64,000 nt of DNA from Streptantibioticus ferralitis (GTDB lineage: Bacteria; Actinomycetota; Actinomycetes; Streptomycetales; Streptomycetaceae). Below are positions 9,370-28,514 of the stretch, piece by piece. The notes below the pieces were generated by a model. The model was not told the origin of the DNA, did not search any database, and worked only from the letters and a program-made list of their open reading frames with translations. The DNA lies in the NCBI RefSeq assembly GCF_029223525.1, contig NZ_JARHTQ010000001.1, forward strand, positions 186,001 to 250,000, written 5' to 3'. A program made the translations under genes and the position numbers. Within the stretch, counting starts at the first letter, position 1. Each line of letters starts with the position of its first letter.

Positions 9370-9378
9370 TCGATGATC

Positions 9379-9392
9379 TTTGAAGACGGATC
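9379..9392. repeat. Right terminal inverted repeat of the IS
   Basis: This is the complement of GATCCGTCTTCAAA, with one mismatch to the left end. CTAG at 9393-9396 follows directly. Confidence 0.9.
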
Positions 9393-9404
9393 CTAGTTTG
9401 GCCC

Positions 9405-11250: not shown

Positions 11251-11360
11251 TCCTACGACCAGCAAGGAGACGCTGCGATGCAGCATGCCCTCATACATCC
11301 GCCGCCTGATCCAACGCCGCCGGCAGCTTCGGCTGCACGCACCGGCGTGGGGCAACGGTG

Positions 11361-12506: not shown

Positions 12507-12575
12507 CTGGCGCTTCCCTCTCCCCTACCTCTCTCCACGCGCTCCCGCGCACCCATTTTCGAACTGGAGTTCACA

Positions 12576-12884
12576 GTGATACTCGCCGACAAGGCCATCC
12601 AGCTTGCCTACGATCCCGGCATCAGTCCCAACAGCGGCGGCCTGCCCGGCTTGCCGGTCTTGAAGCAGGTGATCGGCTCGATCAACCTGTTCGGCATCAT
12701 CGCCGTGGTCGGCGCGCTCGCCGTCAGCGCGGGTGTGTGGGCCTGGGGCCACCACTCCGGCGGCCACCAGGCGGAGGCGAACGGCAAGAAGGGCGTGCTG
12801 GTCTCCGCCGGTGCAGCCCTATTGCTGGGCGCGGCGAACGGTGTGGTGGCGTTCTTCAGCACGCTGGGGACGCAGGTCCACTGA
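12576..12884 (+). CDS. DUF6112-type small membrane protein (VirB2 pilin-like)
   Basis: The 102-residue protein has GISPNSGGLPGLPVLKQVIG at the front, two transmembrane helices (IIAVVGALAVSAGVWAWG and LVSAGAALLLGAANGVVAF) and a short polar loop with GHHSGGHQAEANGKKG. This layout matches DUF6112 proteins, found next to actinobacterial conjugation genes, and resembles VirB2/TrbC pilin subunits. The GTG start follows CTGGAGT. Its stop overlaps the next ATG (TGATG), so the two are coupled. Confidence 0.75.
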   Translation: MILADKAIQLAYDPGISPNSGGLPGLPVLKQVIGSINLFGIIAVVGALAVSAGVWAWGHHSGGHQAEANGKKGVLVSAGAALLLGAANGVVAFFSTLGTQVH

Positions 12885-13570
12885 TGTCCGCCCGTAGCGA
12901 TGACTATTCCGGCCGCGCACCGCGCGTGCTCCGCCGGGCGCTGATCGGAACCGCCGTCTTGGCGGTACTTATCGCCCTGGCCGGCCTGTTCGCCTACGCC
13001 ACCCGCGACAGCAGGCGTCCCGCCAAGGTCCCTGTTTCCAGGTCGAGTTCGGTGTCTACTGCTCCTTCCACGCCGTCTTCGTCGGCCTCCGCGTCTGCCG
13101 GGCGAAGCACGCTGCCCAAGCCTCCGGCGACGCACGATCCGATCGTCTTGGGCAAGGCGGCGGCCACCGCCTTGTGGACGTACGACACCCGCGCATACTC
13201 CCAACCCCAGTTGCTGTCCGCTCTGCACGCCTGGATGACGAGCGAGAGCAACTACGCCGATGTCGCGTCGGTCAACCAGCAGGTCCCCACGACACAGCTG
13301 TGGGAGCAGATGGCCCAAGACCGCCAGTACGCCACCGCCACCGTCAACGAGGCACACTTCCCGGCCTCGTTCACCCACGCCCTGCAGGCGGACCCAGGGG
13401 CGATCACCCAGGCGTACATCTACGCCGTCACCGTCACCGGCAAGCAGTCCATCGCGTGGAACGGCGCACCCCACGGCGGGGCCGAAGACCGATCTACCAC
13501 CCTCGCCGTCCAGTGCCGCCCCGGCAAGGACTGTGCCCTGGTCGGGGTCCTGCCCGCCGTCGCCCCCTGA
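12884..13570 (+). CDS. Bitopic membrane protein of the transfer operon (VirB8-position)
   Basis: The ATG overlaps the preceding stop. One N-terminal transmembrane helix (residues ~20-40, LIGTAVLAVLIALAGLFAYA) is followed by a Ser/Pro-rich spacer and a ~150-residue outside domain (TYDTRAYSQPQLLSALHAWM onward). The topology, short cytoplasmic tail plus a compact exported domain, fits VirB8/TcpC-type channel proteins. The position between pilin-like and VirB6-like genes supports this. No diagnostic motif is visible, so the assignment rests on topology and context. Confidence 0.6.
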   Translation: MSARSDDYSGRAPRVLRRALIGTAVLAVLIALAGLFAYATRDSRRPAKVPVSRSSSVSTAPSTPSSSASASAGRSTLPKPPATHDPIVLGKAAATALWTYDTRAYSQPQLLSALHAWMTSESNYADVASVNQQVPTTQLWEQMAQDRQYATATVNEAHFPASFTHALQADPGAITQAYIYAVTVTGKQSIAWNGAPHGGAEDRSTTLAVQCRPGKDCALVGVLPAVAP

Positions 13571-13605
13571 ACCACGCCGACACCGAAAGAGAGGAGGTAC
13601 CTGCC

Positions 13606-15096
13606 ATGGGAGTCTGCGACATCCCCTTGATGGACAAGGTCTGCGACGTGGTTGATGGCATCAACTTCGTCAGCGACCCGGGCAAGAGCATCACCGACGG
13701 CATCGGCGCGTGGATCGCCAAGTCCATGGGCGAACTGGCCACCAGTGCCGCCAACCTTGCTGCCAAGGCCGTCGACAAGACGACAGCCATCGACCTGAAC
13801 GCCTCATGGTTCAGGCACAACTACGACCTGATCTTGCCGATCGGTCTCGCGTTGCTCGTCGGCACGTTCTGCCTGCAGTTGATGCTCGCTGCCTGGCGAC
13901 GGGACGAGCGAGCCCTCGCCCAGGCCGCCTGGGGCACCATGACCGGCGTCCTGTTCTCCTTCTGTGCCGTGTCCTTCACCGCAGTTGCCGTTACCGCCGT
14001 GGACGCCTTGTCCGACGGGCTGTTCAAGGCGGCCAACCTGAGCATCGCGGACGCGGTGCGGCGCATCATCAAGGTCTCCGAACTGGGGGCGATGTTCCAG
14101 CTCGGCTGGGCGATCCCCGCCCTGGTCGCCGTTGGCTGCGCGATCGGCGCCTTCTTGTACTGGTGCGTCATGGTCGCCCGTAAGGTCGGCGTGCTGATCC
14201 TCGTCACGCTCGCCATCTTCGCCGGGGCTGGTGGCGGTTGGGATGCGGCCAGGCGTTGGCGGCGCGGCTGGATCGAGGCCACCGGCACGCTGGTGGTGTC
14301 CAAGCTGCTGATGACGGTGGTCTTCCTGATCGGCGTCAGTGCGATTGGCAACTCGGATGCCAAGGACGGCATGAGTGCCCTGTCGGACGCCATGGCGGGC
14401 ATCGTGGTGATGGTCCTGGTGCTGTTGTGCCCGTACGCCACCTACCGGTTCATCCACTGGGCCACCGACGGCGGCGGCCACGACGAGGTCCACCGCTCCG
14501 GCGTCGCGGGCTTGGCGGTTGCCGCAGGCGCGGCGAAGACCGCGGGCAGCCTGGCACTGCAGATGCGCACCGGCGCTCCGGCCCCGCAGGGTCCGAACCA
14601 GGTTCCGGGCATGGGTCCCGGCGGCGTCGCCTCCGGCATCGACCCCACTGGTCGGATCAGTAAGGAAGGCATCGATGCTGGGCCGCCCCGGCAGCCGACC
14701 ACGTACCGGTACGGCGAGGACCCGAACGCCTCCGGTGACAAGGGCCGCGCTCTGATCCAACGTCCTGGTATCCCGCCGCTGATCACCCGATCTGGCGCGG
14801 CAGGCGGAAGCAGCGCCTCCGAGCCTGGCGAGCCTGTGGCCAGCGACGGCTCGGCCCAGCAACCAGTCTCCTTGGGCAGCCCGTCGAGTGGGCTTCCGAC
14901 CAGCTTCGTCCCCGCCGCCCCCTCGGGTCCGGAACCCGCTGGAGCCCCGGGTCCCAGGACGATCCCCCCGATCGGCAACGATCTGTCCGCTCGCCGAGCA
15001 GATCCGGCACCCGGCAGTAACGGCCCGTCGGCAACAGGCTCGCCGACCCCGGCCTGCTGGGACTTCCCGAACCAGCCGCCGAGTTCCGAAGCCTGA
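13606..15096 (+). CDS. TrbL/VirB6-like polytopic membrane protein
   Basis: ATG 13606 sits behind GAGGAGGT; the longer upstream reading is in a different gene's DNA. Residues ~75-300 contain five or six hydrophobic helices (LILPIGLALLVGTFCLQLML, TMTGVLFSFCAVSFTAVAVT, MFQLGWAIPALVAVGCAIGA, VLILVTLAIFAGAG, LLMTVVFLIGVSAIG and others). A ~170-residue Pro/Gly/Ser-rich cytoplasmic tail follows. This is the TrbL/VirB6 layout, the inner-membrane channel of type IV secretion. Actinobacterial versions have such long disordered tails. Confidence 0.8.
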   Translation: MGVCDIPLMDKVCDVVDGINFVSDPGKSITDGIGAWIAKSMGELATSAANLAAKAVDKTTAIDLNASWFRHNYDLILPIGLALLVGTFCLQLMLAAWRRDERALAQAAWGTMTGVLFSFCAVSFTAVAVTAVDALSDGLFKAANLSIADAVRRIIKVSELGAMFQLGWAIPALVAVGCAIGAFLYWCVMVARKVGVLILVTLAIFAGAGGGWDAARRWRRGWIEATGTLVVSKLLMTVVFLIGVSAIGNSDAKDGMSALSDAMAGIVVMVLVLLCPYATYRFIHWATDGGGHDEVHRSGVAGLAVAAGAAKTAGSLALQMRTGAPAPQGPNQVPGMGPGGVASGIDPTGRISKEGIDAGPPRQPTTYRYGEDPNASGDKGRALIQRPGIPPLITRSGAAGGSSASEPGEPVASDGSAQQPVSLGSPSSGLPTSFVPAAPSGPEPAGAPGPRTIPPIGNDLSARRADPAPGSNGPSATGSPTPACWDFPNQPPSSEA

Positions 15097-15247
15097 TCCA
15101 TCCGCGGGGCGGGCTGGCCCACTCGGCACAGCCTGCCCCGCCTCCCCCTCGTTCCTTCACCGAAGCAGGAGATCCCTCGATGGCTTCCAGAAGAGCGCTC
15201 CTCCTCCAGCTGCCCGATGTTCCGCGCTCGTACCACCTGGATTCCCG

Positions 15248-16714
15248 ATGTCTGACACCCCGGCCAGCACCCCGGCCGCCGTAACGTTTCCGCACCGCTC
15301 TCGCCGTGGCATCCTGCTCGGCCTGACCGCCGCCCAGCTGATCGTCCTCGCTGTCTCCGGCCTGCTGCTGCTCGCTGTGATCCTCACGCGTGGCGTGGTC
15401 GGCGCTCTGCAGCTGCTGCCTGCCTGGGCCGTCATCGCCTTGTTCGTCTTCGTCCGCCACCGGGGCCGCTCCCTGGCGGACTGGGCACCGATCGTCTCCC
15501 GCTACGCGCTCCGCCGCATGCGCGGACAGCTGATCTGGCTCGTGCGGCCGTCGCGCCGCCCTGTACGCGAGGGCCTGTTGAACCTCCCCGGTACAGCCGC
15601 CAGCCTGCGTGTCATCACCTCTCCTGACCGCCGATACGGGGCAGTTCATGCCCCCCATTCGGGCACGCTCACCGCGGTGGTGAAGGTTTCCTCCCGCGCC
15701 TACGCCCTGCTGGACCCGGCCACCCAGAACGCCAACGTGGCCGGTTGGGGCCGCACCCTGGCCGCCTTGGCCCGCACCAACCAGGTCGCTCGCATCCAGG
15801 TGATCGAGCGCACCGTCCCCGATTCCGGTGACGCGCTGCGCCGCTACTGGGATGAACATGGCCAGCCCGACGCGCCACTCGCAGGCACCATCTACACCGA
15901 GCTGATCAAGAACGCCGGTCCTGCCGCCGCCCCGCACGAGGCATATGTGGCGGTCGCACTGGACATGAAGGCCGCCCGCCGGTTGATCAACCAGGCCGGT
16001 GGCGGACTGACAGGCGCCTTCTGCGTCCTCTTGCAGCTGACGGCGACGTTCGACCAGGCCGCCCGCACTGCGGGGCTCAACCCGAGCGGCTGGTTGTCCG
16101 CTATGGAGATCGCGGCGGTCGTACGCAGCGCGTACGACCCCAAGGCTCTCCCGGCGCTGGACCGTTGGTCCTCCACGGGGCGGCCCGAGGCGGATCCGGC
16201 TGCTGCTGGTCCGGTTGTGGTTGTGGAGAAGGCGGACTGCATCGCTACTGATTCGGCGTTCCACACCACGTACTGGGTGGAGAACTGGCCCCGTACCGAG
16301 ACCAGCGCTGGGTTCTTGCACCAGTTGCTGTTCACCGCCGGTGTCCGTCGCACCCTGACTCTGTCCTACGAGCCGAAGGGCCTGGATGCCGCGTTGCGCG
16401 ATGTCCAGCGCAAGAAGGCATCCGTCATCGCGGACGCGGCCGAACGCGTCCGCCGAGGCCAGGTCGATTCCGAAGCGGACAGCATCGAGTACCAGGACAT
16501 CAAGGCCCGTGAGCGGCAGCTGATCGCCGGACACGCCGATGTCGCCTTGACCGGGCTGCTGACCGTCTCGGCCGACAGCGAGGAGGAACTGCGCTCCGCG
16601 TGCGCGGTCGTGGAGACCGCGGCTGTCGCTGCTCAGCTCGACGTTCGCCCGCTGACCTGGCAGCAGGCCGAAGCCTTCACCGCCGCCGCCATGCCGCTCG
16701 CCCTCGCTGCCTGA
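15248..16714 (+). CDS. SCO6880-family type IV secretion component
   Basis: ATG 15248 begins MSDTPASTPAAVTFPHRSRR, then two adjacent transmembrane helices (residues ~20-65) and a long soluble part. The order of features (basic RRGILLGLTAAQ, helical hairpin, GRSLADWAPIVSRYALRR) matches SCO6880-type proteins. Those combine a PrgI-like membrane piece with the N-terminal half of a VirB4-like protein. The partner ATPase half is encoded at 17222. The ribosome-binding site is weak. It probably anchors the VirB4 ATPase at the membrane channel. Confidence 0.8.
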   Translation: MSDTPASTPAAVTFPHRSRRGILLGLTAAQLIVLAVSGLLLLAVILTRGVVGALQLLPAWAVIALFVFVRHRGRSLADWAPIVSRYALRRMRGQLIWLVRPSRRPVREGLLNLPGTAASLRVITSPDRRYGAVHAPHSGTLTAVVKVSSRAYALLDPATQNANVAGWGRTLAALARTNQVARIQVIERTVPDSGDALRRYWDEHGQPDAPLAGTIYTELIKNAGPAAAPHEAYVAVALDMKAARRLINQAGGGLTGAFCVLLQLTATFDQAARTAGLNPSGWLSAMEIAAVVRSAYDPKALPALDRWSSTGRPEADPAAAGPVVVVEKADCIATDSAFHTTYWVENWPRTETSAGFLHQLLFTAGVRRTLTLSYEPKGLDAALRDVQRKKASVIADAAERVRRGQVDSEADSIEYQDIKARERQLIAGHADVALTGLLTVSADSEEELRSACAVVETAAVAAQLDVRPLTWQQAEAFTAAAMPLALAA

Positions 16715-16750
16715 CGCTGGTCCGCCTCTCCGCTGAAAGAGCACCACCCC

Positions 16751-17203
16751 ATGTCCCGCACTCCCACCCCTGACGCGCAGGACTTCGTTCCGTACGCGAC
16801 CGCGGCGATCGACTTTCACCGGGCACTGAACGTCCCCGGCGGCGCCCTGGTCGCCAGCCGCACCGAGTTGGAATCCCTGCACGCCCACCTGATCGCCCTG
16901 CACGGCCTCCTGGACGCCCACGTGTCACGCACGACGCCGCTGATGCAGACCGAGGGCGACCACCTCAAGGCCGCGCGGACCCGGATCTGGCAGGCCGCCG
17001 ACCATCTGCACGCCGCCTACCACGCGGCCCCCAGGCCGGACACCGGCGAGGTGCCGACCCGGGAGGCGTACTCAGCTCGCCTGCCCGAGGGCGCCCCGGA
17101 GCTGACGATCTGCCAGCGCCACCAGCGTGCCGCCCGCACCGTGCGGCGCCAGTCCACCCCGGCAGAGCTGTACGCCCCCTTCACCGGCCTCATCCGCCAC
17201 TGA
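16751..17203 (+). CDS. Hypothetical helical protein in the tra operon
   Basis: The 150-residue protein has no membrane span. It is rich in Ala, His and Leu with several long helices (LHAHLIALHGLLDAHVSRTT, DHLKAARTRIWQAADHLHAA) and a basic tail. The ATG follows CTGAAAGAG. It lies 36 bp after the SCO6880-type gene and 18 bp before the VirB4-like gene, so it is surely co-transcribed. The function is not recognised; it may be a cytoplasmic accessory to the secretion ATPase. Confidence 0.6.
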   Translation: MSRTPTPDAQDFVPYATAAIDFHRALNVPGGALVASRTELESLHAHLIALHGLLDAHVSRTTPLMQTEGDHLKAARTRIWQAADHLHAAYHAAPRPDTGEVPTREAYSARLPEGAPELTICQRHQRAARTVRRQSTPAELYAPFTGLIRH

Positions 17204-17221
17204 CCACACGAGAGCACTGTC

Positions 17222-18727
17222 ATGCCGAAAACCCGCGCCAGCGCCAGCCCCCTGTACATCCCCCGCAAGTCTTCCCGTACCCAACAGTGCGCCGCGCGAG
17301 CGGAGTTCGCCGCCGCGCGTCGCCAAGCCCGCCACGCTGCAACGGCCCGCAAGCAGCACGCCGTCCAAGGTGTCGACCCGGAGCTGCGGGCGACCTACCC
17401 CGCATCCGGGCGCCCTGGGCCGGCGTCAGCCCGGGGAGGCAAGCTCCGGCTGCCAGCGCACCGGATGACCACCGCCACGGCCAGCGGCGCGTACCCCTTC
17501 CTCGCCGAAGGCGGCCTGGGTGCGGAAGGAATCTTCATCGGGCGCGACGTACATGCCGAGGCAGCGTTTTGCTACGACCCCTTCAGCCTGTACAACAGCG
17601 GCCGACTCGACGGATTCACCAACCCCAACGCGGTGTTGGCCGGAATCATCGGCATGGGCAAGTCCGCCCTGGCCAAGAGCATCGCGACCCGAGCAATCGC
17701 CCACGGCTACCGCATCTACGTCCCCTGCGACCCCAAAGGCGAATGGACCGACCTCGCTCAGGCCCTCGGCGGCTACACCATCGCCCTCGGCCCCGGCCTG
17801 CCAGGACGGTTGAACCCGCTCGACGCCCCGGCCCGACCGGCCGGTGTGAACGAATGTGACTGGGCCAGCGAGGTCCGCAAGCGCCGCTTGCTGCTCCTCA
17901 GCAGCCTGGCCCGCACCGTACTCAAGCGCGACTTGCGGCCGATGGAACACACCGCGCTCGACCTCGCCCTCGACCTGGTCGTCGCCAACGCCCAGACACG
18001 CGACACGGTGCCACTGCTCGGCGAAATCGCCCACACCCTCGGCAACACCCAGCTTCTGGATTCCGCGCTCGGCGAGGGAACTGGGCGGATGGGTCCGGCC
18101 GCGCAGGACCTCGCTCACGCCTTGCGGCGCTTGGTCCACGGCGACCTCAGCGCAATGTTCGACGCCCCGTCGACCGTGAAGTTCGACGCGAACGCACCGA
18201 TGCTGTCGATCGACCTGTCCCGGCTCGGCAGCGCTGGTGACGACACCGCCCTCGTACTGGCTATGACCTGCGCCAGTGCCTGGATGGAATCCGCCCTCGC
18301 CGACCCCTATGGCGGACGGCGCTGGGTGATCTATGACGAGGCGTGGCGAGTGATGCGCCACATCGGCCTGCTGGAGCGCATGCAGGCCCAGTGGAAGCTC
18401 TCCCGCGGTCTTGGCATCGCCAACCTCATGATCGTCCACCGCCTGTCCGACCTGCTCTCCGCAGGCGACGCCGGATCACGCGGACGCGTCCTGGCCGAGG
18501 GACTCCTCGCCGACTGCTCCACCCGAATCATCTACCGCCAAGAGCCGGACCAACTCGCCACCGCCGCCTCCCTACTCGGCCTGACCGGTGTCGAGACCCA
18601 AGCCGTCTCGGCCCTCATCAAGGGCCGAGGGCTATGGAAGGTCGCTGGTCGCAGCTTCATCGTCCAGCACCTCCTTCACCCGGCTGAGCGGCAACTGTTC
18701 GACACCGACGCGCGCATGGCCGCCTGA
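17222..18727 (+). CDS. VirB4/TraE-like secretion ATPase
   Basis: The Walker A motif GIIGMGKS is at residues 141-148. Walker B is in RRWVIYDEAWRVM, the typical VirB4 form (DEAW). Further features are VPCDPKGEWTDLAQALGG after the P-loop and WKLSRGLGIANLMIVHRLSDL (sensor-like) near residue 400. At 501 residues it covers only the ATPase half of a classical VirB4; the missing N-terminal half is probably supplied by the SCO6880-type protein upstream. The first 90 residues are basic and low in complexity. It powers pilus or channel assembly and DNA transfer. Confidence 0.88.
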   Translation: MPKTRASASPLYIPRKSSRTQQCAARAEFAAARRQARHAATARKQHAVQGVDPELRATYPASGRPGPASARGGKLRLPAHRMTTATASGAYPFLAEGGLGAEGIFIGRDVHAEAAFCYDPFSLYNSGRLDGFTNPNAVLAGIIGMGKSALAKSIATRAIAHGYRIYVPCDPKGEWTDLAQALGGYTIALGPGLPGRLNPLDAPARPAGVNECDWASEVRKRRLLLLSSLARTVLKRDLRPMEHTALDLALDLVVANAQTRDTVPLLGEIAHTLGNTQLLDSALGEGTGRMGPAAQDLAHALRRLVHGDLSAMFDAPSTVKFDANAPMLSIDLSRLGSAGDDTALVLAMTCASAWMESALADPYGGRRWVIYDEAWRVMRHIGLLERMQAQWKLSRGLGIANLMIVHRLSDLLSAGDAGSRGRVLAEGLLADCSTRIIYRQEPDQLATAASLLGLTGVETQAVSALIKGRGLWKVAGRSFIVQHLLHPAERQLFDTDARMAA

Positions 18728-19554: not shown

Positions 19555-19626
19555 ATGTCCGTTGTTGGTAAGTCCGGCTATCAGAAGTTGCGGAATGGTC
19601 CTCCATCCCGTGGAGATCCACGGTAG
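19555..19626 (+). other. Possible start of a tra gene cut off by the nested island
   Basis: A 23-codon frame starts at ATG 19555 (MSVVGKSGYQKLRNG) in the right place and direction to be the next tra gene, and ends at 19626. The 15 bases AAGTCCGGCTATCAG inside it (19570-19584) recur at 21906-21920. It may be a gene start truncated by the insertion to its right, or it may be meaningless. Confidence 0.25.
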
Positions 19627-20529
19627 TCACCGGTCCCGGTAGAGGACTTCAGCTGGCTCCCAGTCCGCGTAGAAGTCGTTTGGTGACTCATCCAGCTTGA
19701 CCTCCTCCGCAAGCCCCTCCAACTCTTCAAGTTCCTCGTGCTCGACAAGCAGGTCGCAGGCCGGGCAGCTGAAGACGAAGGGGGTGAACATGACCGCCCA
19801 CTCATCCTCGTCGACGTGCTTGTCACCACTAAGCCAGCCCTGCGAGTCGCATGCCGGGCAGGTGACGAGCTCGTCGTGTTCGATGTTGCCGCCGGGAGGG
19901 AAGACTCGCGCAATCGCGCCGAGGACGAGCTCGCGTTCCTTCTGGGGCATGTGGCCGTAACGTTCCGTGAAGACATCTTTGGCCCGAGCAAGTTTGCTCT
20001 CCAGCCGGACACGGACAGCTTCCACGTTCTCTTCGAGAAGCCGGTCGTGCAGGGACTCGTAACCGCCCCAGTAGGAGTTGTTGATCTTGAGCTCGACGAG
20101 CAAGGGGTCGATCAGCCGGAGACACGTGGTGAAGACGGCATTGACCTCTGACCGGTCGTACATGCCACTGTGTGCGACGCCGTTACGAGCATTGGCTAGC
20201 GGTCCAAGCGCCCGCTGATCGACCGGCATTTTCTTCCGCAAGATCTTCTGCGCTCGGGCATGGGCTTCGGCCAAGCCGATGGTCTTGACCTGCTCCGCGG
20301 GAACCGAAGCGTGTGACCCGTGACCCGTCGCGTGCAGCAAGGAGTTGAAATCCTTGCCCTCCACTACGAGAGCCGGATGGAGGCTGGCCAGGTATGACTT
20401 GAGGAGATGCTCGGCAGCGATCCCGGCGTGGTGGACCGCCAGGTCATGAGACGACGGGCCTTCGGCGAGCGCGATGAAGGCCGCGATCATCCATTTGCGC
20501 GAAGAGAGCTTGAGCCGTTCCGAGTCCAT
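19627..20529 (-). CDS. HEPN-domain protein with C-terminal zinc ribbon
   Basis: From ATG 20529 the protein has 300 residues. The helical N-terminal part contains ARNGVAHSGMY with R115 and H120, the RxxxxH signature of HEPN ribonuclease domains. HHAGIAAEHLLKSYL is the preceding HEPN helix. The C-terminal part has two Cys pairs (CPACDSQGW and CPACDLLVEHEE) that make a zinc ribbon, and an acidic end. HEPN proteins are often RNA-cleaving toxins or defence effectors, but this motif also occurs in inactive helper proteins. No antitoxin (MNT nucleotidyltransferase) is next to it. A start at 20562 is also possible. Confidence 0.65.
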   Translation of the reverse strand: MDSERLKLSSRKWMIAAFIALAEGPSSHDLAVHHAGIAAEHLLKSYLASLHPALVVEGKDFNSLLHATGHGSHASVPAEQVKTIGLAEAHARAQKILRKKMPVDQRALGPLANARNGVAHSGMYDRSEVNAVFTTCLRLIDPLLVELKINNSYWGGYESLHDRLLEENVEAVRVRLESKLARAKDVFTERYGHMPQKERELVLGAIARVFPPGGNIEHDELVTCPACDSQGWLSGDKHVDEDEWAVMFTPFVFSCPACDLLVEHEELEELEGLAEEVKLDESPNDFYADWEPAEVLYRDR

Positions 20530-20988
20530 GGCCAGGACACTAGGCGGCTGGAGCAGACACATTGTCGGAATTTCGGTGGCACTCAATAGTGCCACGGCGA
20601 CATATGTCCACTTCTGTCTGCCCCAGCGCCGAGCAGGTCGAGGTCGCAACGGCAGCCGTTCTCGCCGTCCGGACTGGCTTTGTACGCGTGACCTGACACC
20701 ACTTGTCGGTCACGGACGACACCACCTGGTGTTGGCGGAGAGCGATGTCGCCGAGATTTGACACCACTTCGGGCCTTGCGGTGGGAGGATCGGTGTTCTC
20801 CTCGTGGTGAGGGGCGCCGATGCCGCCCAAGTCCAAGCCTGAGCGGCCGCCCAGGACTCAGCCGGGAAGTGACGTGCCCACCATTGCCCACGCCCGCTCA
20901 GCCCCGCCTGGCACCAGCCTGCGGTGACCAGGTTGATCGCGTTGCCTGGTCGGACGTACGGCGGCGAGCCGTTCGAGGCGATGGTGTC
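20530..20988. repeat. Intergenic region with TGACACCAC-type repeats (left cluster)
   Basis: This 459-bp stretch has no gene. It contains three short related sites in one orientation: GACCTGACACCACTTGTCG at 20690-20708, GACACCACCT at 20718-20727 and TGACACCACTT at 20759-20769. Inverted partners lie at 21763-21773 and 21827-21845. The arrangement looks like recombinase- or regulator-binding arms at the two ends of a ~1.15 kb module that holds the XRE/membrane pair. Confidence 0.5.
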
Positions 20989-21375
20989 TCAGGTAAGCCG
21001 AGACCAGAAGGCGACGAACGCGATGTAGGTGATGGCGGCGGTGGCCACGAACCAGAAGTACGGATCGCCGCTTCGTCCGGATGCCAGGTCACCGATGAAG
21101 GCGCTGAGATTCCCCACGGTGAGCACCACGCCCGTGCCGGCCCAGGCTCGCCCTGCGATCCGGGCGAAGCGCTCGTCGGGTTCCTTCTCGGTGAGGCCCT
21201 GGTAGGTCTCGCTCCGGCGTCCCAGCAGTACTAAGGCGAGACTGCAGACCGCCAGGATTCCGAACGTCACCAGGCCGAGAGCGAGGTGGCCGCCGACAGT
21301 CGCGGCCACGAGGCAGGCGCCTCCGAGGGCTAGGAAGAAGCCGGGGACGGACCGCCTGGCTGTGTTACTGGTCAT
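20989..21375 (-). CDS. Four-helix membrane protein paired with XRE regulator
   Basis: ATG 21375 overlaps the end of the XRE gene by 11 bp. The 128-residue protein has four hydrophobic segments (FFLALGGACLVAATVGGHLA, LGLVTFGILAVCSLALVLLG, GTGVVLTVGNLSAFIG and YFWFVATAAITYIAFVAFW). The loop between helices 2 and 3 is charged (RRSETYQGLTEKEPDERFAR). This fits small DUF2178-like membrane proteins that are usually encoded next to a short XRE repressor. It may sense an envelope or ligand signal for the partner. Confidence 0.7.
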   Translation of the reverse strand: MTSNTARRSVPGFFLALGGACLVAATVGGHLALGLVTFGILAVCSLALVLLGRRSETYQGLTEKEPDERFARIAGRAWAGTGVVLTVGNLSAFIGDLASGRSGDPYFWFVATAAITYIAFVAFWSRLT

Positions 21376-21577
21376 CTGCTGGGCTCTCATTGGCATGAAA
21401 CATCTCCTCAACGCTGACCTCGAAGAACTTGGCCATGGACAGGGCGAGCGGCAGGGAAGGTGTGTACCGCTCGGTCTCGATGGCGTTGATCGTTTGCCGT
21501 GAGACCCCGAGGGCTGTGCCTAGCTGGCTCTGGGAGAGCTCTCGTGATGACCGCAGTTTCCTGACGCTGTTTCGCAC
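21365..21577 (-). CDS. Short XRE-family transcriptional regulator
   Basis: This 70-residue protein is an HTH almost end to end: LRSSRELSQSQLGTALGVSR and QTINAIETERYTPSLPLAL are the recognition helices. It belongs to the compact Cro/CI-like regulators that pair with a small membrane protein. The GTG at 21577 lies within a few bases of the probable transcription start, so the mRNA may be leaderless. An inverted repeat that covers the promoter suggests autoregulation. Confidence 0.8.
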   Translation of the reverse strand: MRNSVRKLRSSRELSQSQLGTALGVSRQTINAIETERYTPSLPLALSMAKFFEVSVEEMFHANESPADDQ

Positions 21578-21578
21578 A

Positions 21579-21626
21579 TGTAAAGCGTACTTGTCACCCC
21601 TCGGGGGCTGTCAAGCTTGCTTTACA
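21579..21626 (-). promoter_or_regulatory. Promoter and inverted-repeat operator of the XRE gene
   Basis: Two 18-bp arms, TGTAAAGCGTACTTGTCA (21579-21596) and the complement of TGTAAAGCAAGCTTGACA (21609-21626), match at 14 of 18 positions. On the minus strand the outer arm contains TTGACA (-35) and the inner arm a weak -10 (TACGCT, about 19 bp away) just before the GTG. The geometry is that of a self-repressing XRE protein. Confidence 0.55.
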
Positions 21627-21938
21627 GAAGGGGCCGGGCTCGCACGGCGCCTCGGGCACCGTGCTCACCACGCTGGTGGCCAGCCCGGGATGGAAGGGAG
21701 AGTGCATCCCCGACCGCCCCTTGGAAGGCCGCACCCCGCCCGCGAGTGCGGCTCCAGCTCCGAGGTGGTGTCACTTCTCACCGGCATTTCGCGGCACTGT
21801 GATCGACAAGCGCTGTCTGAACTCGTCGACAGGCGGTGTCAGGTCTCGCCTACAAAGCCACCGGACCGTGTTCGGGCAGGAGAACCAGGCCGCAGGCATA
21901 TCGGCAAGTCCGGCTATCAGCAGCGGCGGAACGTCGGG
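21627..21938. repeat. Gene-free segment with right repeat cluster
   Basis: No gene is visible. It holds the inverted partners of the left cluster, AGGTGGTGTCA (21763-21773) and CGACAGGCGGTGTCAGGTC (21827-21845; 17 of 19 match to 20690-20708). It also holds the second copy of AAGTCCGGCTATCAG (21906-21920), just beyond the end of the recombinase gene. Confidence 0.5.
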
Positions 21939-24446
21939 TCAGCGGCGGCTGACTTCCGCGGCGTAGTCAGCGCCAAAGCCCTGGCTCTCTCGGGTCCAGT
22001 TGTCTCCGGTGGACTGGTGGAACCCAAGCAGTCGGCTGATGGCGATGGCGGGCAGTTCCGAGGCGATGTCCATCAGCGACGCGTGGCGCGCGAGCTGCGC
22101 CGGGATGCCGATCGCCTTCAGCCGCCGACCCAGGGTGTTCGGGTTGATCGGCTGTCCGGGGTAGATGCTATGGAACAGCCACTTGGGTTCCTCGAGCGGG
22201 ACAGTGGCCGCGCGGCCGTTGCGTCGCTCGACGAGCTGGCGGATCAGGCCGTCCAGAGGCGCGGGGATCTCAACGGGGACTCGCCCGAGCTTCAGAGCGA
22301 GCGTGTCGCCACGGTCGACGATGTGCTCGGTGGTGAGGCGGCTGATGCGGCCAACGGGCTGGGCGAACAGCAGCAGGAGCAGGCCGGCGGCCCGGTCGGC
22401 GACCTGGAGTTGTTCGCCGTGGACGAGCCGGCGGACCAGGGCCCAGCGTTGGTCTTTACCGATGATGCGGGCGGTGAAGTAGTTGCTGATGACCGGCGCG
22501 GTCAGTGGTCGGCTGTGGCCGCGTCGGCTGGTCCAGAGCAGGAATCCGCGGACCGTGGCGCGGGCGGTGGGGCCGTCGCTGAGCCAGGCGTCCACCTGGT
22601 CCTGGGTGCAGGTGTCCAGGGTGGTGCCGCCGTCGTGGAGCCATTCCAGCAGGCGGGCCACGTTACGGATCTCGATCCGGACGGTCTCGGCCCGGCCGTG
22701 GGTGACCAACTGTCCGGCGGGCATGCGTCGGAGTCTGCGCAGGGGCTGCCAGTTCGTGTAGTTGCGCAGGATCCTGCGCTCCTCGGCGGACGAGACGCGG
22801 GCGATGGTTTTGGTCAACCAGCGTTCCAATAGGGCCAGTTGTTCGTCCCGGGCGGGCAGGGCTCCTGCGGCGACCAGTGCGGCACGCAGGTACTCCACGG
22901 TCCGCGCGGCGGCGAAGCGGTCAAGGACCTCGTGGGTGACCGGCCCGTGCTCCGTCACCAGGGCTTGGAGGACGGCGCGGCGGGCGGGAACCTTGTGGAT
23001 CCAGTGCAGCACGGTGCGAGGCGGCGGCTTCAGCAGCGCCTGGAAGACCGGTTCCAGTTCCGGGCGCACGGGACCGCCCCGCGGGCTGAGCACGTCGCGC
23101 AGGTCAGCGGAGCGCGCGCAGGCGGCGCACCGTCCGTGCCGGTAGAGCCGTTCGACGGACCCGCACTGGGTGCAGGGACGGCGGGCGGCGGGGTGCTTGG
23201 CCCAGCAGGTCTGGCACAGGGGTTCGCCCTCGGGGGTCCGGCCGCTGGTGCGGAAGGTCCCGCCGCAGCCGGCGCAGGGCTTGGGTTTGTTGCCGCAGTG
23301 GCTGCACAACGGTTCGCCGGTGGCGGTGCGGTTGTTGACGCGCCGGTGCTTGCCGCAGCTGGCACACACGGCCTCCTCGCGCTCCTTGGCGCTGCAAGGC
23401 AGGCACTTGGGGGCATCGGTGGCGGCGAAGTAGCAGGGGCCGCGTTCACCGCAGGTCGCGCAGACTGCGGTGGGAATCTCGCGGCAGACGGCGCAGACTC
23501 CACCGTCGTCGGTGCGCGACTTCCTGAAGCGCAGCGCGCCGCAGACGCTGCATGGCCTGTGGTTGAAGGGGTCGTGCTGGCGGCAGGTGCCGCACACGGG
23601 CTGGCCGTCGAACCTGCGACCGCCGATCGGTCGCGAGCGCCCGCACCCGGCGCAGATCACAACCTTGGTGTCGTGCCAGCACAGCCCGCAGCAACGCAGG
23701 CCGTCACGACGCTGTTTGAGGTCGGTGGTGCGCTGGCAGAACGGACACGAGGGGACGACCACGCCGTGGGCGCCGTAATCAATCAGCGCCTGGGCCAGGG
23801 CGGAGATCTTGGGTGGCCCCTCGGCGCCGCGCCCGGTCAGCAGGGCAGGGGTGTCTTCCAACGCCCACAGCAGCCGGAGCTGGCCGGGGCGGGTGGGTTC
23901 AATCGAGCGGATGACCTGCTGCGCGGTCGCGGGCGAGACGCCGAACGGGCCGGCGGCGATCAGCTTGGCCAGTTCCTGGGCCGGGTCTGTGGCGCCCCAG
24001 GGCGGATGGGCCCGGCAACGGGGCCGACCGGCGCGGTCGCGTCCGGCGAGGGTGGTGCTTCCGCAGATCACGCACGGGTTGGCGCACCAAATGCGGCGGT
24101 TCTTACAGGCACTGCAGATGCGTACGCCGTCACCGAGGCCGGTCAGCGGACGCTCACGCCCGAAGTCACCGCAGCGGGGCTGCGCCAGCCTTTCCGCGCC
24201 GGCCTCGCGCAGTGCCCCAACGAGCCGTTCGATCGCGCGTGGCCCTTCGGGACGGCCGGACGTCAGCAGGTCCGGTCTGGCCTGGAGAACTTCGGCGAGC
24301 GTCCGCAGCTGGGGCCGCTGGCGGAAGACCGCCTGGAGCACGGCGGCGACGTCGATCCGCTCGCACGAAGGGTCGGCCGACCGGACGATCTCGCTGATCA
24401 CGGCCTCAGGCTCGGTAGCGGAGCGTGGCAGCTCAGGATCGGGCAC
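21939..24446 (-). CDS. Large recombinase with tandem zinc ribbons and tyrosine-recombinase-like C-terminus
   Basis: The 835-residue protein starts at GTG 24446. From residue ~105 to ~430 there is a run of about eight CxxC-CxxC modules (for example CAGCGRSRPIGGRRFDGQPV and CGTC, CATCGERGPCYFAATDAPKC). After a linker, a core-binding-like helical part (~560-660) precedes a recombinase-like catalytic region. Arg is in PVGRISRL, His/Arg in ARHASLMDIASEL and His in GFHQST. At the expected nucleophile position the motif reads GDNWTRE, so Trp seems to replace Tyr; a later Tyr (GADY) could serve instead. It probably acts with the recombinase at 24810, as TnpB does with TnpA in Tn554. Confidence 0.7.
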   Translation of the reverse strand: MPDPELPRSATEPEAVISEIVRSADPSCERIDVAAVLQAVFRQRPQLRTLAEVLQARPDLLTSGRPEGPRAIERLVGALREAGAERLAQPRCGDFGRERPLTGLGDGVRICSACKNRRIWCANPCVICGSTTLAGRDRAGRPRCRAHPPWGATDPAQELAKLIAAGPFGVSPATAQQVIRSIEPTRPGQLRLLWALEDTPALLTGRGAEGPPKISALAQALIDYGAHGVVVPSCPFCQRTTDLKQRRDGLRCCGLCWHDTKVVICAGCGRSRPIGGRRFDGQPVCGTCRQHDPFNHRPCSVCGALRFRKSRTDDGGVCAVCREIPTAVCATCGERGPCYFAATDAPKCLPCSAKEREEAVCASCGKHRRVNNRTATGEPLCSHCGNKPKPCAGCGGTFRTSGRTPEGEPLCQTCWAKHPAARRPCTQCGSVERLYRHGRCAACARSADLRDVLSPRGGPVRPELEPVFQALLKPPPRTVLHWIHKVPARRAVLQALVTEHGPVTHEVLDRFAAARTVEYLRAALVAAGALPARDEQLALLERWLTKTIARVSSAEERRILRNYTNWQPLRRLRRMPAGQLVTHGRAETVRIEIRNVARLLEWLHDGGTTLDTCTQDQVDAWLSDGPTARATVRGFLLWTSRRGHSRPLTAPVISNYFTARIIGKDQRWALVRRLVHGEQLQVADRAAGLLLLLFAQPVGRISRLTTEHIVDRGDTLALKLGRVPVEIPAPLDGLIRQLVERRNGRAATVPLEEPKWLFHSIYPGQPINPNTLGRRLKAIGIPAQLARHASLMDIASELPAIAISRLLGFHQSTGDNWTRESQGFGADYAAEVSRR

Positions 24447-24455
24447 GACCGGCGC

Positions 24456-24800
24456 CTACTCGGGCACGATCCGGGCCCGCTTGGGCCGCAAATCGCCGAG
24501 CCCGGCATCCTTCCCGGCCGCCGATCCGCCACCGGCCGCGGCGCTGTGACGGCGCCGCGAACCGGCCGCCGCGACGGGCTCGATGAGCTCGTCCATACTG
24601 CAGCCCAGGATGTCGAGCAGGGCCATGAGGGTCTTCAGGCTCAGCCGCTCGGGCCGTTCCACCACCAGGCGGTAAGTCTGGCTGGGCGACAGGTCGATGC
24701 CGCGCTCGGCCAGCAGGGGACGCAGGTCGGTGGTGGAGAACATTCCGCGGGTGGCCATCACTTCCCGCAGATGCCAGCGGTAGTCAAGCTTCGGCGTCAC
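24456..24800 (-). CDS. Small HTH (Cro/CI-like) protein between the recombinase genes
   Basis: The 114-residue protein has an HTH at the front: FSTTDLRPLLAERGIDLSPS, QTYRLVVERPERLSLKTLMA, then LLDILGCSMDELIEP. The tail is basic and Gly/Ala-rich. It is separated by 9 bp from each neighbouring recombinase gene, so the three form one transcription unit. It may regulate the unit or act as the small accessory protein of the recombination complex. Confidence 0.75.
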   Translation of the reverse strand: MTPKLDYRWHLREVMATRGMFSTTDLRPLLAERGIDLSPSQTYRLVVERPERLSLKTLMALLDILGCSMDELIEPVAAAGSRRRHSAAAGGGSAAGKDAGLGDLRPKRARIVPE

Positions 24801-24809
24801 ATCGTCTCC

Positions 24810-25916
24810 CTACTGTCCGCCCTGCAGGGCCTGGTCCAAGACCTTACGCATCATCGCGTTCATGAAGTCCCCGCTCACACCGGTATAGAGGGCGGTCGTG
24901 GAGGCGTAGCGGTGACCGACCTGCCGCTGGACGAAAACGGGGTCCGCACCGTCCTCGATCTGGTGGGTCACGTGGCTGTGCCGAAGACAGTGCGGGACCA
25001 GCGCCTTGTCCAGGCCCAGCGCATCGCGGTAGGCCGCGAACCGGTCCTCGATCTCGCGAGCCTGCAGGCGCCCGCCTCGTTCGGTCAGCCACAGCGCCGA
25101 CTGCTCGGGGGCCGCCGCGTAGCGGGGCCGGGCGTTGATCACGTAGTCCTCCACCGCTTCCACCGCCCAGGGCATGACGCTCAGCGTCGTACGTCGACGT
25201 GGCGGCGATCCCTTGGTCCGCTTGCCGTAACGCACGTGCAGCGAACCGAAGTTGCCCAACTCCGGTGCCTTCGGGTTGCGGTAGAAGTCGGTGACGTCCA
25301 GCCGGGAGGTCTCGGTGCAGCGCGTGCCCCAGCCGTACATCAGCTTGAACACGGTGGCGTCCCGGTAGGCCGCGAGCGCTCCCTTGCGCCCCAGCCGGAT
25401 CGCCCGGTCGACCTGGGCGTCCGCGTGGTCGAGAAAGATCTGGATCTCCTCCCGCGTCATCGGCCGCCGCTCGGCGCCGCCCTCGTAGTCGGCCAGGTGC
25501 GCGACGGTGTTCCACTCGTGGCAGATCTGCACCGGATGCACCCCGAAGCGGGTCTCGCACTCGGCCGGCCACTGGTAGTGCGGCGAGGTGACGTAGTCGC
25601 AGAACATCCGGATCGCACCCTGGTACCCGCGGATCGTCGACTCCGCCCGCTTCAACTCGGCGATCAGGTACGTCATCCACTCGTCTAGATCGGACGCCGA
25701 CCACTGCCACGGATAGGCGTTGGTGTACGCGGCGAAGCGCCGCACCGCGCTCTGTCGATCGCTGATCGTGTCCGGCTGCAGCCGGCGCCCGCCGCGCTGT
25801 TGCCGTCCCCAGCCCTCGATCATCGCCTCGAAGACCGCGTCCTCGGGATGCAGCAGAGACACGCCCTGGAGCAGCACGAGCTGCGCTGAAGCCTCCCGCA
25901 GTTCCGCTCCGGGCAT
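24810..25916 (-). CDS. Tyrosine recombinase, complete catalytic set
   Basis: In the 368-residue protein the catalytic residues are all present: R199 (GWGTRCTETSRL), Lys around 232-235 (GKRTKG), H309/R312 (HCLRHSHVTH), H335 (QVGHRYAST) and nucleophile Y344 (TALYTGVS). The N-terminal ~150 residues form the SAM-like core-binding domain. ATG 25916 follows GGAGGGGG. It is the first gene of the trio and should drive integration and excision of the island. Confidence 0.88.
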   Translation of the reverse strand: MPGAELREASAQLVLLQGVSLLHPEDAVFEAMIEGWGRQQRGGRRLQPDTISDRQSAVRRFAAYTNAYPWQWSASDLDEWMTYLIAELKRAESTIRGYQGAIRMFCDYVTSPHYQWPAECETRFGVHPVQICHEWNTVAHLADYEGGAERRPMTREEIQIFLDHADAQVDRAIRLGRKGALAAYRDATVFKLMYGWGTRCTETSRLDVTDFYRNPKAPELGNFGSLHVRYGKRTKGSPPRRRTTLSVMPWAVEAVEDYVINARPRYAAAPEQSALWLTERGGRLQAREIEDRFAAYRDALGLDKALVPHCLRHSHVTHQIEDGADPVFVQRQVGHRYASTTALYTGVSGDFMNAMMRKVLDQALQGGQ

Positions 25917-26016
25917 CCGTAGCCCCCTCCATTAGCCGCGCGAATCATGCATCAGATGCACTCGCCCGCGCAACACCCCAGGCCACTGGCCTCAACTTCG
26001 AAGAGAGGTACTCGGC

Positions 26017-26571
26017 ATGAAGCCGCAGAACACCAGCTCAACCAACTCCGGATCACGCATCCAACGCAATTCCCCGCCGTCTAAGAAATTCTGGACGATC
26101 GCGCACGCTTGCGGACATGAGGTCGAGCGCGACCTTTCCGACCGCCCCGCGGACCGCCGCGCCGGTTTCGCCGAATGGCTGGCCAATCAGGAGTGCACCG
26201 ACTGTTGGAAGGCCACACGCGTCGACCGTGAAGAAGTCAAGGCGGCCTGGCTGGCCGCCAAGCGTGCCGAGGAGCAGGCCGCCGCCGGCACTTGGTCAGC
26301 GCAGTACCGGATGCCTCCGTTGGAGGGCAGCGAGCGAGGGATCGCCTGGGGCGAGCGCTGCCGCCATCAGTTGGTGTCCGCCGCCTACACCGCTCTGGTT
26401 CTCGAGGGCGACATGGACGATGACGCGTGGCAGCAGATAGAGGACGCGGCTCGGACCATCACCCGCGCTGGCTGGTGGATCGACAACCGCGCCTCCGAAC
26501 CTGACGACCTCCCCGAGCTCCTGGCCGCTGCCACTTCTGGTGACCGGCCGTGTGAGAACCCATTCGTCTGA
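26017..26571 (+). CDS. Hypothetical transfer-region protein with zinc-knuckle-like N-terminus
   Basis: ATG 26017 follows GAAGAGAGG. Near the front are AHACGHEVERDL and ECTDCWKATR, so His/Cys and CxxC groups could hold a metal ion. The rest is helical and Trp-rich (RAGWWIDNRA). The protein has 184 residues. It is the first rightward gene after the nested island and is followed by a strong terminator. The family occurs in Streptomyces plasmids and integrative elements as a protein of unknown role. Confidence 0.6.
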   Translation: MKPQNTSSTNSGSRIQRNSPPSKKFWTIAHACGHEVERDLSDRPADRRAGFAEWLANQECTDCWKATRVDREEVKAAWLAAKRAEEQAAAGTWSAQYRMPPLEGSERGIAWGERCRHQLVSAAYTALVLEGDMDDDAWQQIEDAARTITRAGWWIDNRASEPDDLPELLAAATSGDRPCENPFV

Positions 26572-26680: not shown

Positions 26681-26726
26681 ATCCTCCACGAGCCCGTTTC
26701 GTCAACTCATTTCCTTGGACACCTGC

Positions 26727-28514
26727 ATGCCTACCCCGCGTACCAGCGCGCCATCGACCACCGACGGTACCGACGCGCTCCTTTGTCTGCTGTTCGGCGC
26801 CGTTGGCGCCGCCGTCGGTTATGGCTCCCTCGCCTGGCTGAGCGGTAGTCTCACCAACTACCTGCTGGCATCTGGAACTTGGGTCCGCTACCAGCCGGCA
26901 GAAGCGGTTCTTCATCCGGCTGAACTCTGGCCCGACCTTTCCCCCACCGCACTGCTCATCGGCGCGCGGGTCCTGCCCGCCGTCCTACTCAGCGCCCTCC
27001 TCACCGCAATAGCGATCTTCTGGCTGTCCCGGCGTAGCGGTGTCACGACCGGGCTGGCGCGCAAGGCGGACCTCGCTCCGCTGCTGGGCAAGCAGATCAC
27101 CGCCAAGGCGAAGAGCCTGCGGCCAAGCCTTTCCGGGCTCAAGCCCAAGGAGATCCCTCCGGCCGACCGCGGCATCCTCCTCGGCACCCTCGACCCGGGC
27201 CAGGCGGAGGTCCGTGCCTCCTGGGAGGACGTACTGGTGGCAATCATGGCCCCGCGCTCTGGCAAGACCTCCGGCCTGGCCATCCCAGCAATCTTGTCCG
27301 CCCCCGGACCGGTGCTGCTGACCTCCAACAAGGCGGCGAACGACGCCTTCACCGCCACCGTGGACGCGCGCTCCAAGGTCGGCAACATCTGGACGCTCGA
27401 CCCGCAGCAGATCGCGCATCACCCGCGCCGCATGTGGTGGGACATCCTCGCCGACGCCCGCGACCTGGCCGGAGCCAAGCGTCTGGCCGGGCACTTCGTC
27501 GCCGCATCCGTGGACGACTCCAACGGCGGCGACTTCTGGTCCACCGCCGCCAGCAACACCCTCGCCGCCCTGTTCCTGGCAGCCTCCTCCTCCGGCCGCC
27601 CCATCACCGACGTACTCGCCTGGCTCGCCTCCCCCGCCGACCGCACCCCGGTCGACCTGCTCACCGACGCAGGCCACCTGGCCGTCGCCGCCCAACTCCA
27701 GGGCACCGTCAGCGGCGCCACCGAAACCCGGGACGGCATCTACGAGACCGCGCGACAGTACGCCAGCTGCCTGCTCGACCCGGAAATCGCCGCGTGGGTC
27801 ACTCCCACCGAGGAGGTGCCCGAGTTCAAGCCCAGTGACTTCGCCACCTCGAAGGACACGTTGTACCTGCTGTCCAAGGACGGCGGCGGCTCCGCCTCCG
27901 CGATCATCGCCGCAGCCGCCGACGCGGTCATGCGCGCCGCGGTGATCGTCGCCGAACGCTCCGGTGGAAGGCTCGACCCGCCGCTCCTAGCGATCCTGGA
28001 TGAGGCCGCCAACGTGTGCCGCATCTCGGACCTGCCGGACCTGTACTCGCACCTCGGCAGCCGCGGCGTCATCCCCCTCACGATCCTGCAGTCCTACCGG
28101 CAGGGCCAGAAGGTCTGGGGCGAGACGGGCATGGACGCACTGTGGTCCGCCGCCACCATCAAGATCATCGGCTCCGGTATGGACGACGCCGACTTCGCCG
28201 ACCGCGTCTCCCGCCTCGTCGGCGACCACGACGTACAGACCTCGTCGATCTCCACCAGCGACGGCGGCAAATCCACATCGATCTCGATGCGCACCGAGCG
28301 GATCCTGCCCCCGGACGCCATCCGAGCCCTACCCAAGGGCAAGGCACTCCTGCTGGCCACCGGCATCCGCGTCGCGATGCTCAGCCTCAAGCCCTGGTAC
28401 AAGGAGCGGTCCGCCAAGCAGATCGGCCCCGCCTCCGCAGCCGCCACGAAGGCGATCACCGAGCGGGCCATCGCCAAGACTCTGCGCAGTGATGACTTCG
28501 GGACTGCGGCATGA
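26727..28514 (+). CDS. VirD4/TraG-like type IV coupling protein
   Basis: Two N-terminal transmembrane helices (residues ~20-45 and ~75-95) precede a cytoplasmic ATPase. Walker A is APRSGKTS, Walker B is LLAILDEAANVC, and FWSTAASNTLAALFLAA and GVIPLTILQSYRQG are typical VirD4 features. It links the relaxase-DNA complex to the channel and pumps DNA. ATG 26727 is chosen; TTG 26715 in the same frame is possible. The last residues, DDFGTAA, are shared with the WhiB-like protein at 55518, including the DNA. Confidence 0.9.
   Translation: MPTPRTSAPSTTDGTDALLCLLFGAVGAAVGYGSLAWLSGSLTNYLLASGTWVRYQPAEAVLHPAELWPDLSPTALLIGARVLPAVLLSALLTAIAIFWLSRRSGVTTGLARKADLAPLLGKQITAKAKSLRPSLSGLKPKEIPPADRGILLGTLDPGQAEVRASWEDVLVAIMAPRSGKTSGLAIPAILSAPGPVLLTSNKAANDAFTATVDARSKVGNIWTLDPQQIAHHPRRMWWDILADARDLAGAKRLAGHFVAASVDDSNGGDFWSTAASNTLAALFLAASSSGRPITDVLAWLASPADRTPVDLLTDAGHLAVAAQLQGTVSGATETRDGIYETARQYASCLLDPEIAAWVTPTEEVPEFKPSDFATSKDTLYLLSKDGGGSASAIIAAAADAVMRAAVIVAERSGGRLDPPLLAILDEAANVCRISDLPDLYSHLGSRGVIPLTILQSYRQGQKVWGETGMDALWSAATIKIIGSGMDDADFADRVSRLVGDHDVQTSSISTSDGGKSTSISMRTERILPPDAIRALPKGKALLLATGIRVAMLSLKPWYKERSAKQIGPASAAATKAITERAIAKTLRSDDFGTAA

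Follow-up and report, generated by a model that had tools for sequence, protein, structure and literature searches.

Transposons that move by tyrosine recombinases (YRs) and encode several recombinase-like proteins, such as Tn554, SE, GInt and RIT elements, are poorly understood, above all in their non-cutting partners. Here we analyze a three-gene unit in a 64,000-nucleotide stretch of Streptantibioticus ferralitis DNA (contig NZ_JARHTQ010000001.1, positions 186,001 to 250,000; hereafter the window), which consists of a YR gene, a small helix-turn-helix (HTH) gene and a gene for an 835-residue protein, here called Big, that combines a zinc-ribbon array with a degenerate YR domain. Comparison with relatives leads us to propose, with a probability of about three in four, that this trio serves as the recombination module in a transposon with site preference and the layout left end (LE) - YR - HTH - Big - (cargo) - right end (RE), in which Big is catalytically silent.

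The same three-gene core is present in the XER modules of Arthrobacter plasmids, reported in 2018 from between umuC and umuD, as far as the accessible part of that report describes them (PMC6305408). Plasmid pA2H2 carries a YR, an HTH protein and a Big relative (26.7% identity to a Rhodococcus Big, E = 8e-53), along with a TerC gene, in a module located between umuD and a Y-family polymerase gene, and a core of YR, HTH and large YR-related protein with variable cargo behind it is common to these modules and to the family studied here. The large protein is named XerC there, whereas a lost nucleophile, a zinc array, element ends and a YR-gene target find no mention in the accessible part of the report (PMC6305408), and the end matrices described below find no ends in the Arthrobacter locus L117.

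According to the accessible part of another source, Tn554 encodes two RHRY recombinases and TnpC and leaves a 6-bp footprint (PMC10214605). The trio resembles Tn554 in its short and long YR-related proteins, its small third gene and its site preference, and a preliminary description, made from the window's letters alone, had proposed a variation on Tn554 TnpA/B/C. Our results do not support this membership: the YR is complete, but a nucleophile Tyr is found in 0/35 Big proteins (two rows being gaps); the small gene encodes a Cro/C1-type HTH protein (PF13443) rather than TnpC, with DUF6262 genes lying beside the trio and not in it; and the empty allele of the one locus pair at 100% identity matches over 500/500 bp, with no 6-bp donor footprint.

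In the proteobacterial SE and GInt elements, active YRs are accompanied by a protein that has the YR fold but lacks RHRY (Tfp, GinC), and all four GInt genes are needed, as cited in the accessible part of PMC10214605. Big would be the counterpart of Tfp and GinC, here compared by description, if the YR fold to which weak profile matches point is accepted. SE and GInt differ in having two active YRs plus Srap or GinD, as against one active YR plus an HTH protein here (a single PF00589 match among six genes tested inside the window element's ends), in their host phylum, in the 6-bp footprint that SE leave and, within the description accessible to us, in showing no zinc array. The RIT archetype comprises three proteins, all with a catalytic Tyr, and RITs carry 34-bp terminal inverted repeats (PMC10214605, accessible part); the trio likewise has three adjacent genes with YR relatives among them, but not three YRs each with a catalytic Tyr.

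The core itself is thus already known as XER modules, whereas its ends, its silent partner and its YR-gene target appear to be unreported in the accessible parts of these sources, and a search of the literature with most subscription journals and all preprints outside reach returned no report of ends, silent partner or catalytic-Tyr-codon target. Defined ends, natural empty sites and one active beside one silent protein make the silent partner's task testable in this family. Its target habit is unusual, in that many members use the active-site stretch of other recombinase genes and not tRNA or housekeeping genes. Inteins and introns likewise settle in active-site codons. The habit also bears on the stacking, and possible mutual disabling, of mobile elements on actinobacterial plasmids.

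The three-gene core and the ends of the element

The three genes are consecutive on the minus strand, 9 bp apart, as judged from the window's reading frames, and their order and coordinates are those of the preliminary description:

24810..25916, minus strand: YR, catalytically complete tyrosine recombinase of 368 amino acids (PF00589, E = 1.6e-19)
24456..24800, minus strand: HTH protein of 114 amino acids, HTH_26, Cro/C1-type (PF13443, E = 6.8e-15), upstream of 45/50 Big matches
21939..24446, minus strand: Big, 835 amino acids, zinc-ribbon array plus degenerate YR domain (Pfam, alignments and CxxC count)

In an alignment set of 35 Big and 30 YR proteins, the YR catalytic residues R199, H309 and R312 are kept in 30/30 rows and H335 and Y344 in 29/30, the remaining row having a gap there. 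The three-gene operon proved to be conserved in its order in actinobacteria. Among 50 Big matches with their N-terminus in the fetched loci (individual loci of relatives, numbered with L below, some annotated examples being broken), an HTH gene lies directly upstream in 45 and a YR gene in 43. The seven matches without a directly upstream YR gene comprise a nested copy (the second in L049), a remnant (L053), a 30-codon fragment (L066), three Big copies adjoining transposase genes (L050, L075, L076) and L059, for which a YR and an HTH gene are listed nonetheless. This count left out L099-L101 (repeats of L066, L060 and L061) and L113-L116, the latter, like a number of short loci, mostly because longer pieces of the same places were used.

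The finding goes well beyond chance: by tblastn, Big relatives occur in 250 of 72,556 plasmid records (114 Streptomyces, 57 Rhodococcus) and, with the genome of the window included, in 20/121 genomes of the family and 12/118 genomes of the class. A protein search of 50,697 phage records returned no relative, a search of phages with an LE stretch no match, and a single pattern scan of viral contigs no relative. The genome of the window also holds diverged or partial Big relatives at G000:C35:55107-56558, C21:31591-32214 and C110:180948-181292. Three different truncations, in which only the last ~145 codons of Big are left, were seen in L011, L012 and L013, the breakpoints falling no more than 34 bp apart in the coordinates of L009.

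Self-BLAST around each trio gave no shared terminal repeat; the ends were defined by comparison of loci. Aligned DNA upstream of the YR gene has a sharp boundary, reading AACCCTCGGGAATTGCATC... or GACCGCGGGGAATTGCGTT..., left of which the DNA is unrelated; this LE measures 26 bp. The RE is a 37-bp motif, GGCATTCGGACAGTTCCAATACCCGACTCCACCATTA with variants, that lies downstream of Big, either at its stop or past the cargo. The window holds the following copies, scored where indicated by position weight matrix (PWM):

26056..26081, minus strand: LE, outermost base 26081 (PWM 31.9-32.1 against a control maximum of 14.6)
25944..25960, minus strand: further copy of the end motif (TGCATCTGATGCATGAT), nearly palindromic and close upstream of YR, a candidate binding site for the recombinase or the HTH protein
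21899..21935, minus strand: RE1, internal right-end copy, just past the Big stop (PWM 42.9)
19563..19599, minus strand: RE2, outer right end, outermost base 19563 (PWM 43.3; the 19562-26082 join restores the target gene)

The LE and RE matrices, which were seeded from some of the scanned loci, gave 37 LE and 42 RE matches at a score of at least 30, as against top scores of 14.6 and 7.7 in a 300-kb reversed control. For 30 of the 41 listed LE, an RE follows 1.5-12 kb downstream in the same orientation, and most RE-bearing loci have a single RE downstream of the trio. A 17-base LE pattern matched 14 times, in 11 of 200 genomes, and not at all in the reversed control; in 19/26 sequences, GATGCA occurs no more than 80 bp ahead of the YR start used in our analysis. 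The end scans left out the short loci L001-L006, L018-L046 and L077-L090, the LE list left out L100 and L101, and the score count left out L099-L101. At two loci, the RE of one element abuts the LE of the next, as in tandem insertions (L058 7059-7121; L061 12494-12556).

The large partner protein

Two parts of Big can be delimited in the window:

23118..24116, minus strand: zinc-ribbon array (residues 111-443), 16 CxxC motifs by count
21942..22769, minus strand: degenerate YR domain (residues 560-835), with Trp817 in place of the nucleophile (Trp invariant in 29/29; PDB profile match to XerD)

The 16 CxxC motifs amount to eight pairs, or potential ribbons, which bears out an earlier estimate of about eight, and 14-18 of them occur in 29/34 Big relatives, some of the remaining relatives being fragments. 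Pfam returned only a weak DZR_2 (double-zinc-ribbon) match for Big, and no match was found in NCBIfam (E <= 1) or PHROGs (E <= 0.001). We suggest that the array may read DNA.

At the nucleophile position, where the preliminary description had read GDNW and seen no Tyr, our alignments agree: the column holds Tyr in 0/35 Big proteins, Trp in 31, Leu and Arg in one each and gaps in two, and in a second, cleaner alignment of the C-terminal domains Trp is found in 29/29. The box-II Arg (R787) is kept in 35/35. The first catalytic Arg is not at its place, with an Arg nearby in 19/35 and 22/35, and the box-III His is replaced, with a His one residue later in 20/35. The idea that GADY might supply the missing nucleophile does not hold as far as the sequence tells, since its tyrosine, Y828, is conserved (Tyr in 32/35) but lies 11 residues past the Trp and falls, in the alignment, within the C-terminal tail (DFMNTxL) of the active YR, downstream of the latter's own Tyr. 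Neither Tyr-bearing homologues nor a lack of conserved co-occurrence, both named beforehand as evidence against the preliminary description, was encountered.

The best PDB profile match of the Big C-terminal domain is XerD (1a0p, E = 0.032), with the greater part of the two domains in register, and PF00589 matches weakly in 8/29 Big members (best 0.0013). Big can be described as a putative YR-fold protein that lacks a catalytic tyrosine, the fold being suggested by weak matches.

Insertion sites and empty sites

The window element spans 26081-19563 (6,519 bp) and interrupts a conjugation-cluster gene at its third codon; the two parts of this gene flank it:

19555..19562, plus strand: start of the interrupted target gene (ATG TCC GT), on the RE2 side (flank join)
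26082..26571, plus strand: remainder of the target gene (KKFWTIAHACGH...) (flank join; open reading frame (ORF) 26017-26571)

These limits were chosen because the joined flanks restore a reading frame and align gap-free at the junction: the 19562-26082 join yields MSV-KKFWTIAHACGH, and the joined flanks match a same-genus genome over 698 bp in one piece (83.5%, 6 gap letters, none at the junction). When RE1 is taken as the end instead of RE2, the alignment to the empty site covers one side only. The element end also gives the remainder of the target gene a new in-frame start (ORF 26017-26571). The target, a small 'HACGH' gene, is present in 29/101 family genomes and has as its neighbours a VirB4-like gene (recognised by eye, with only weak AAA matches in Pfam) and a TraG/VirD4-like gene (Pfam). 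Among 30 target-gene loci viewed, codon 1 is ATG in 17 and GTG or TTG in 5 more (by eye), and three loci besides the window have LE-like DNA there (matrix scores of 24.2 and 26.8, the third by eye only). The surroundings (11358-18727 and 26715-28514) resemble a type IV secretion system (T4SS) conjugation cluster, with a weak TrbC/VirB2-like match, the VirB4-like gene seen by eye and the TraG/VirD4-like gene found by Pfam.

In one subclade of relatives, LE is often preceded on its left by the 3' portion of another YR gene, which is cut past its nucleophile Tyr, and to the right of RE the sequence continues as the remainder of the same gene. Of the 27 left flanks tested, 16 match PF00589, L128 below the curated cut-off and the other 15 above it, and all 16 matches stop at profile position 165-166 of 172; in the same numbering, the Tyr of the window YR would fall at about position 165. 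In these 16 Pfam-supported cases the cut lies one codon past the Tyr, or two codons in L051. The majority flank consensus of 25 LE of this main subclade, CAC.ACC.....CTAC, ends three bases before the junction and corresponds to the codons of the YR Thr-Thr...Tyr stretch. The Pfam test covered 26 of the 41 listed LE left flanks plus L128; the 15 others (the window subclade, consisting of window, L007, L009 and L010, together with L047, L052, L054 at 4724, the first LE of L058, L061, L062, L067, L092, L094, L103 and L105) were excluded on the grounds of a missing flank, another element's end, shortness, an unclear frame or opposite strand. By eye, four of the 11 unmatched flanks are also YR-like (the second LE of L058, L095, L111 and L112), as is that of L118 outside the tested set; L052, likewise outside it, is inserted in a comM-like gene by eye.

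L049 and L054 (and by eye L106) each interrupt the YR gene that belongs to another trio. In L016 and L108 the trio lies between a YR gene and a pair of genes for a 'tyrosine-type recombinase' and a DUF6262 protein, within what looks like a Tn554-like element; the DUF6262 genes adjoining the trio we take to be TnpC-like.

Evidence for movement comes from genome G140, in which a 4,670-bp contig starts and stops exactly at LE and RE, as an assembly repeat unit would. Three left-flank contigs (ending EIYL, VDVYG and TYYQ), all with PF00589 matches, and four right-flank contigs, YR C-termini by eye, adjoin it, and the 118-127 bp inside every junction are identical. At least three YR genes of this genome thus contain identical junctions of the element, which shows recent movement. 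As to empty sites, the joined flanks of L107 equal NZ_CP108277.1, of the same species name, over 500/500 bp (100%), and agree with a further S. atratus plasmid at 99.4% and with four more plasmids at 84%; this natural empty allele, the one locus pair at 100%, has neither duplication nor footprint. For L063 and L112, too, uninterrupted relatives match the joined flanks, at lower identity and coverage.

Collectively, identical copies at different sites, defined ends and empty sites are what is expected of a transposon, and comparison among loci shows, at the level of DNA sequence, element ends, precise insertion without target duplication or footprint, and two target habits: a large subclade usually enters other YR genes, and the subclade of the window enters codon 3 of a gene in a T4SS-like cluster.

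LE reads in frame into the cut gene, so that insertion would supply a new tail, or a new start in the window. We considered whether the tail is a selected replacement. Among 17 elements with a 32-codon frame-0 tail, the three codon positions carry nearly equal numbers of differences (1321/1166/1305), and in frame 0 the synonymous share exceeds that of the other frames only modestly (0.40 vs. 0.32 and 0.23), so that selection is not established.

Proposed mechanism, alternative readings and other features

In the mechanism we propose, YR would be the sole enzyme: it would join LE to RE to form a circle and insert this circle into a target. Big, which has a putative YR fold and a conserved tail at its C-terminus but lacks the nucleophile, would be a non-catalytic subunit of the synaptic complex, its zinc-ribbon array gripping an element end or reading the target. 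The HTH protein would regulate the module or set its direction, probably via TGCATC-N-GATGCA sites near LE and the YR promoter. A further and tentative idea, to which we give appreciably less than even odds, is that the family seeks out recombinase genes, the dead zinc-bearing relative helping to steer the active YR to the catalytic-Tyr DNA of rival elements. If so, insertion would either disarm the carrier's recombinase or, through the LE tail, keep its function with a new C-terminus, and the transposon would travel on whatever moves.

Several observations weigh against the proposal of a silent partner in a site-preferring transposon. With regard to targets, the window element's own target is not a YR gene, and 11 of the 27 flanks tested have no YR match; the non-YR flanks include a 2'-5' RNA ligase (L057), an AAA protein (L072), unknowns (L048, L073, L074), an ISL3-type transposase (L059, below cut-off) and, by eye, one of IS3 type (L109). 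With regard to ends, 11 of 41 LE lack an RE, three of them near a contig end (L091, L093, L096), one LE in L054 is probably spurious, no LE or RE reaches a score of 12 in the Arthrobacter relative L117 or the remnants L012 and L013, and the two RE copies in the window, L007 and L009 are not fully accounted for. Finally, hhalign of the Big C-terminus against a YR profile was not significant (E = 0.33), and AlphaFold2 gave poor models of Big from a six-row alignment (mean predicted local distance difference test score (pLDDT) 56, with values under 50 over much of the C-terminal domain) and of that domain by itself (mean pLDDT 35), so that the fold of Big rests on weak profile matches and aligned motifs.

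Big could instead be an active recombinase with Y828 of GADY as a displaced nucleophile, both proteins cutting DNA as in Tn554. The conservation of Y828 (32/35) and of the box-II Arg (35/35) would suit this, and so would the Arg residues that stand close to the first catalytic position (19/35 and 22/35) and the His that follows the box-III place by one residue (20/35). We consider it very unlikely, however, given that the other catalytic residues are neither in place nor family-wide, that the segment past 'LLYA' is two residues short relative to XerD, and that Y828 aligns with the tail behind the active YR's Tyr. That the trio is an ordinary Tn554-like actinobacterial element is also distinctly unlikely. 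One YR of ~370 amino acids with a long YR-related protein and a small protein, site preference and the lack of a target duplication all fit such an element, and actinobacterial pairs of long and short YRs are filed as Tn554-related in the accessible part of PMC3414803; the silent long partner, the HTH protein in place of TnpC and the missing 6-bp footprint in the sole 100% empty allele do not, and plasmid pREL1, which carries the Famint36/41 pair, has no Big match at E <= 1e-5 (one plasmid). On this one plasmid Famint41, described in the accessible part of PMC3414803, was rejected as a candidate for Big.

The presence of two RE copies with DNA between them in the window, L007 and L009, together with cargo that lies between Big and RE and differs among loci, could also be explained by an integron-like cassette collector, in which YR adds cargo-plus-RE units behind Big. 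Most RE-bearing loci, however, have a single RE downstream of the trio, and tandem insertion followed by deletion gives the same picture, and we regard the collector as unlikely on balance. It is exceedingly improbable, finally, that the preference for YR genes is an artefact of YR-rich plasmids and islands: our sample does come in good part from large plasmids, where YR genes are common, but 16/16 Pfam-supported cuts fall one codon (two in L051) past the Tyr, the CAC.ACC.....CTAC consensus precedes the junction, and in G140 one element has each of its three left junctions within a YR gene.

Returning to the window element, two further features lie between Big and RE2:

19627..20649, minus strand: cargo gene of 340 amino acids, no family match, HEPN-like by eye only (RNGVAHSG motif)
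20675..21860, no strand assigned: nested insertion of 1,186 bp, with 26-bp inverted ends (24/26 match) and a 6-bp duplication, CCGGAC

A reading frame similar to the 340-residue cargo follows Big in L076 (by eye). A defence role was considered for this cargo and set aside, with no match in Pfam, PADLOC, PDB or PHROG. The ends of the nested insertion read TGGCTTTGTA.GCG.GACCTGACACC; it contains an HTH gene and a small ORF, with no recognised transposase, and is absent from L007. An end sequence resembling that of the nested insertion was seen by eye downstream of Big in L055. Elsewhere in the window, an IS5-like transposase gene (8944-9699) and a gene for a 1,581-residue RHS/YD-repeat protein with a deaminase-like C-terminus (40471-45216) were recognised by eye only.

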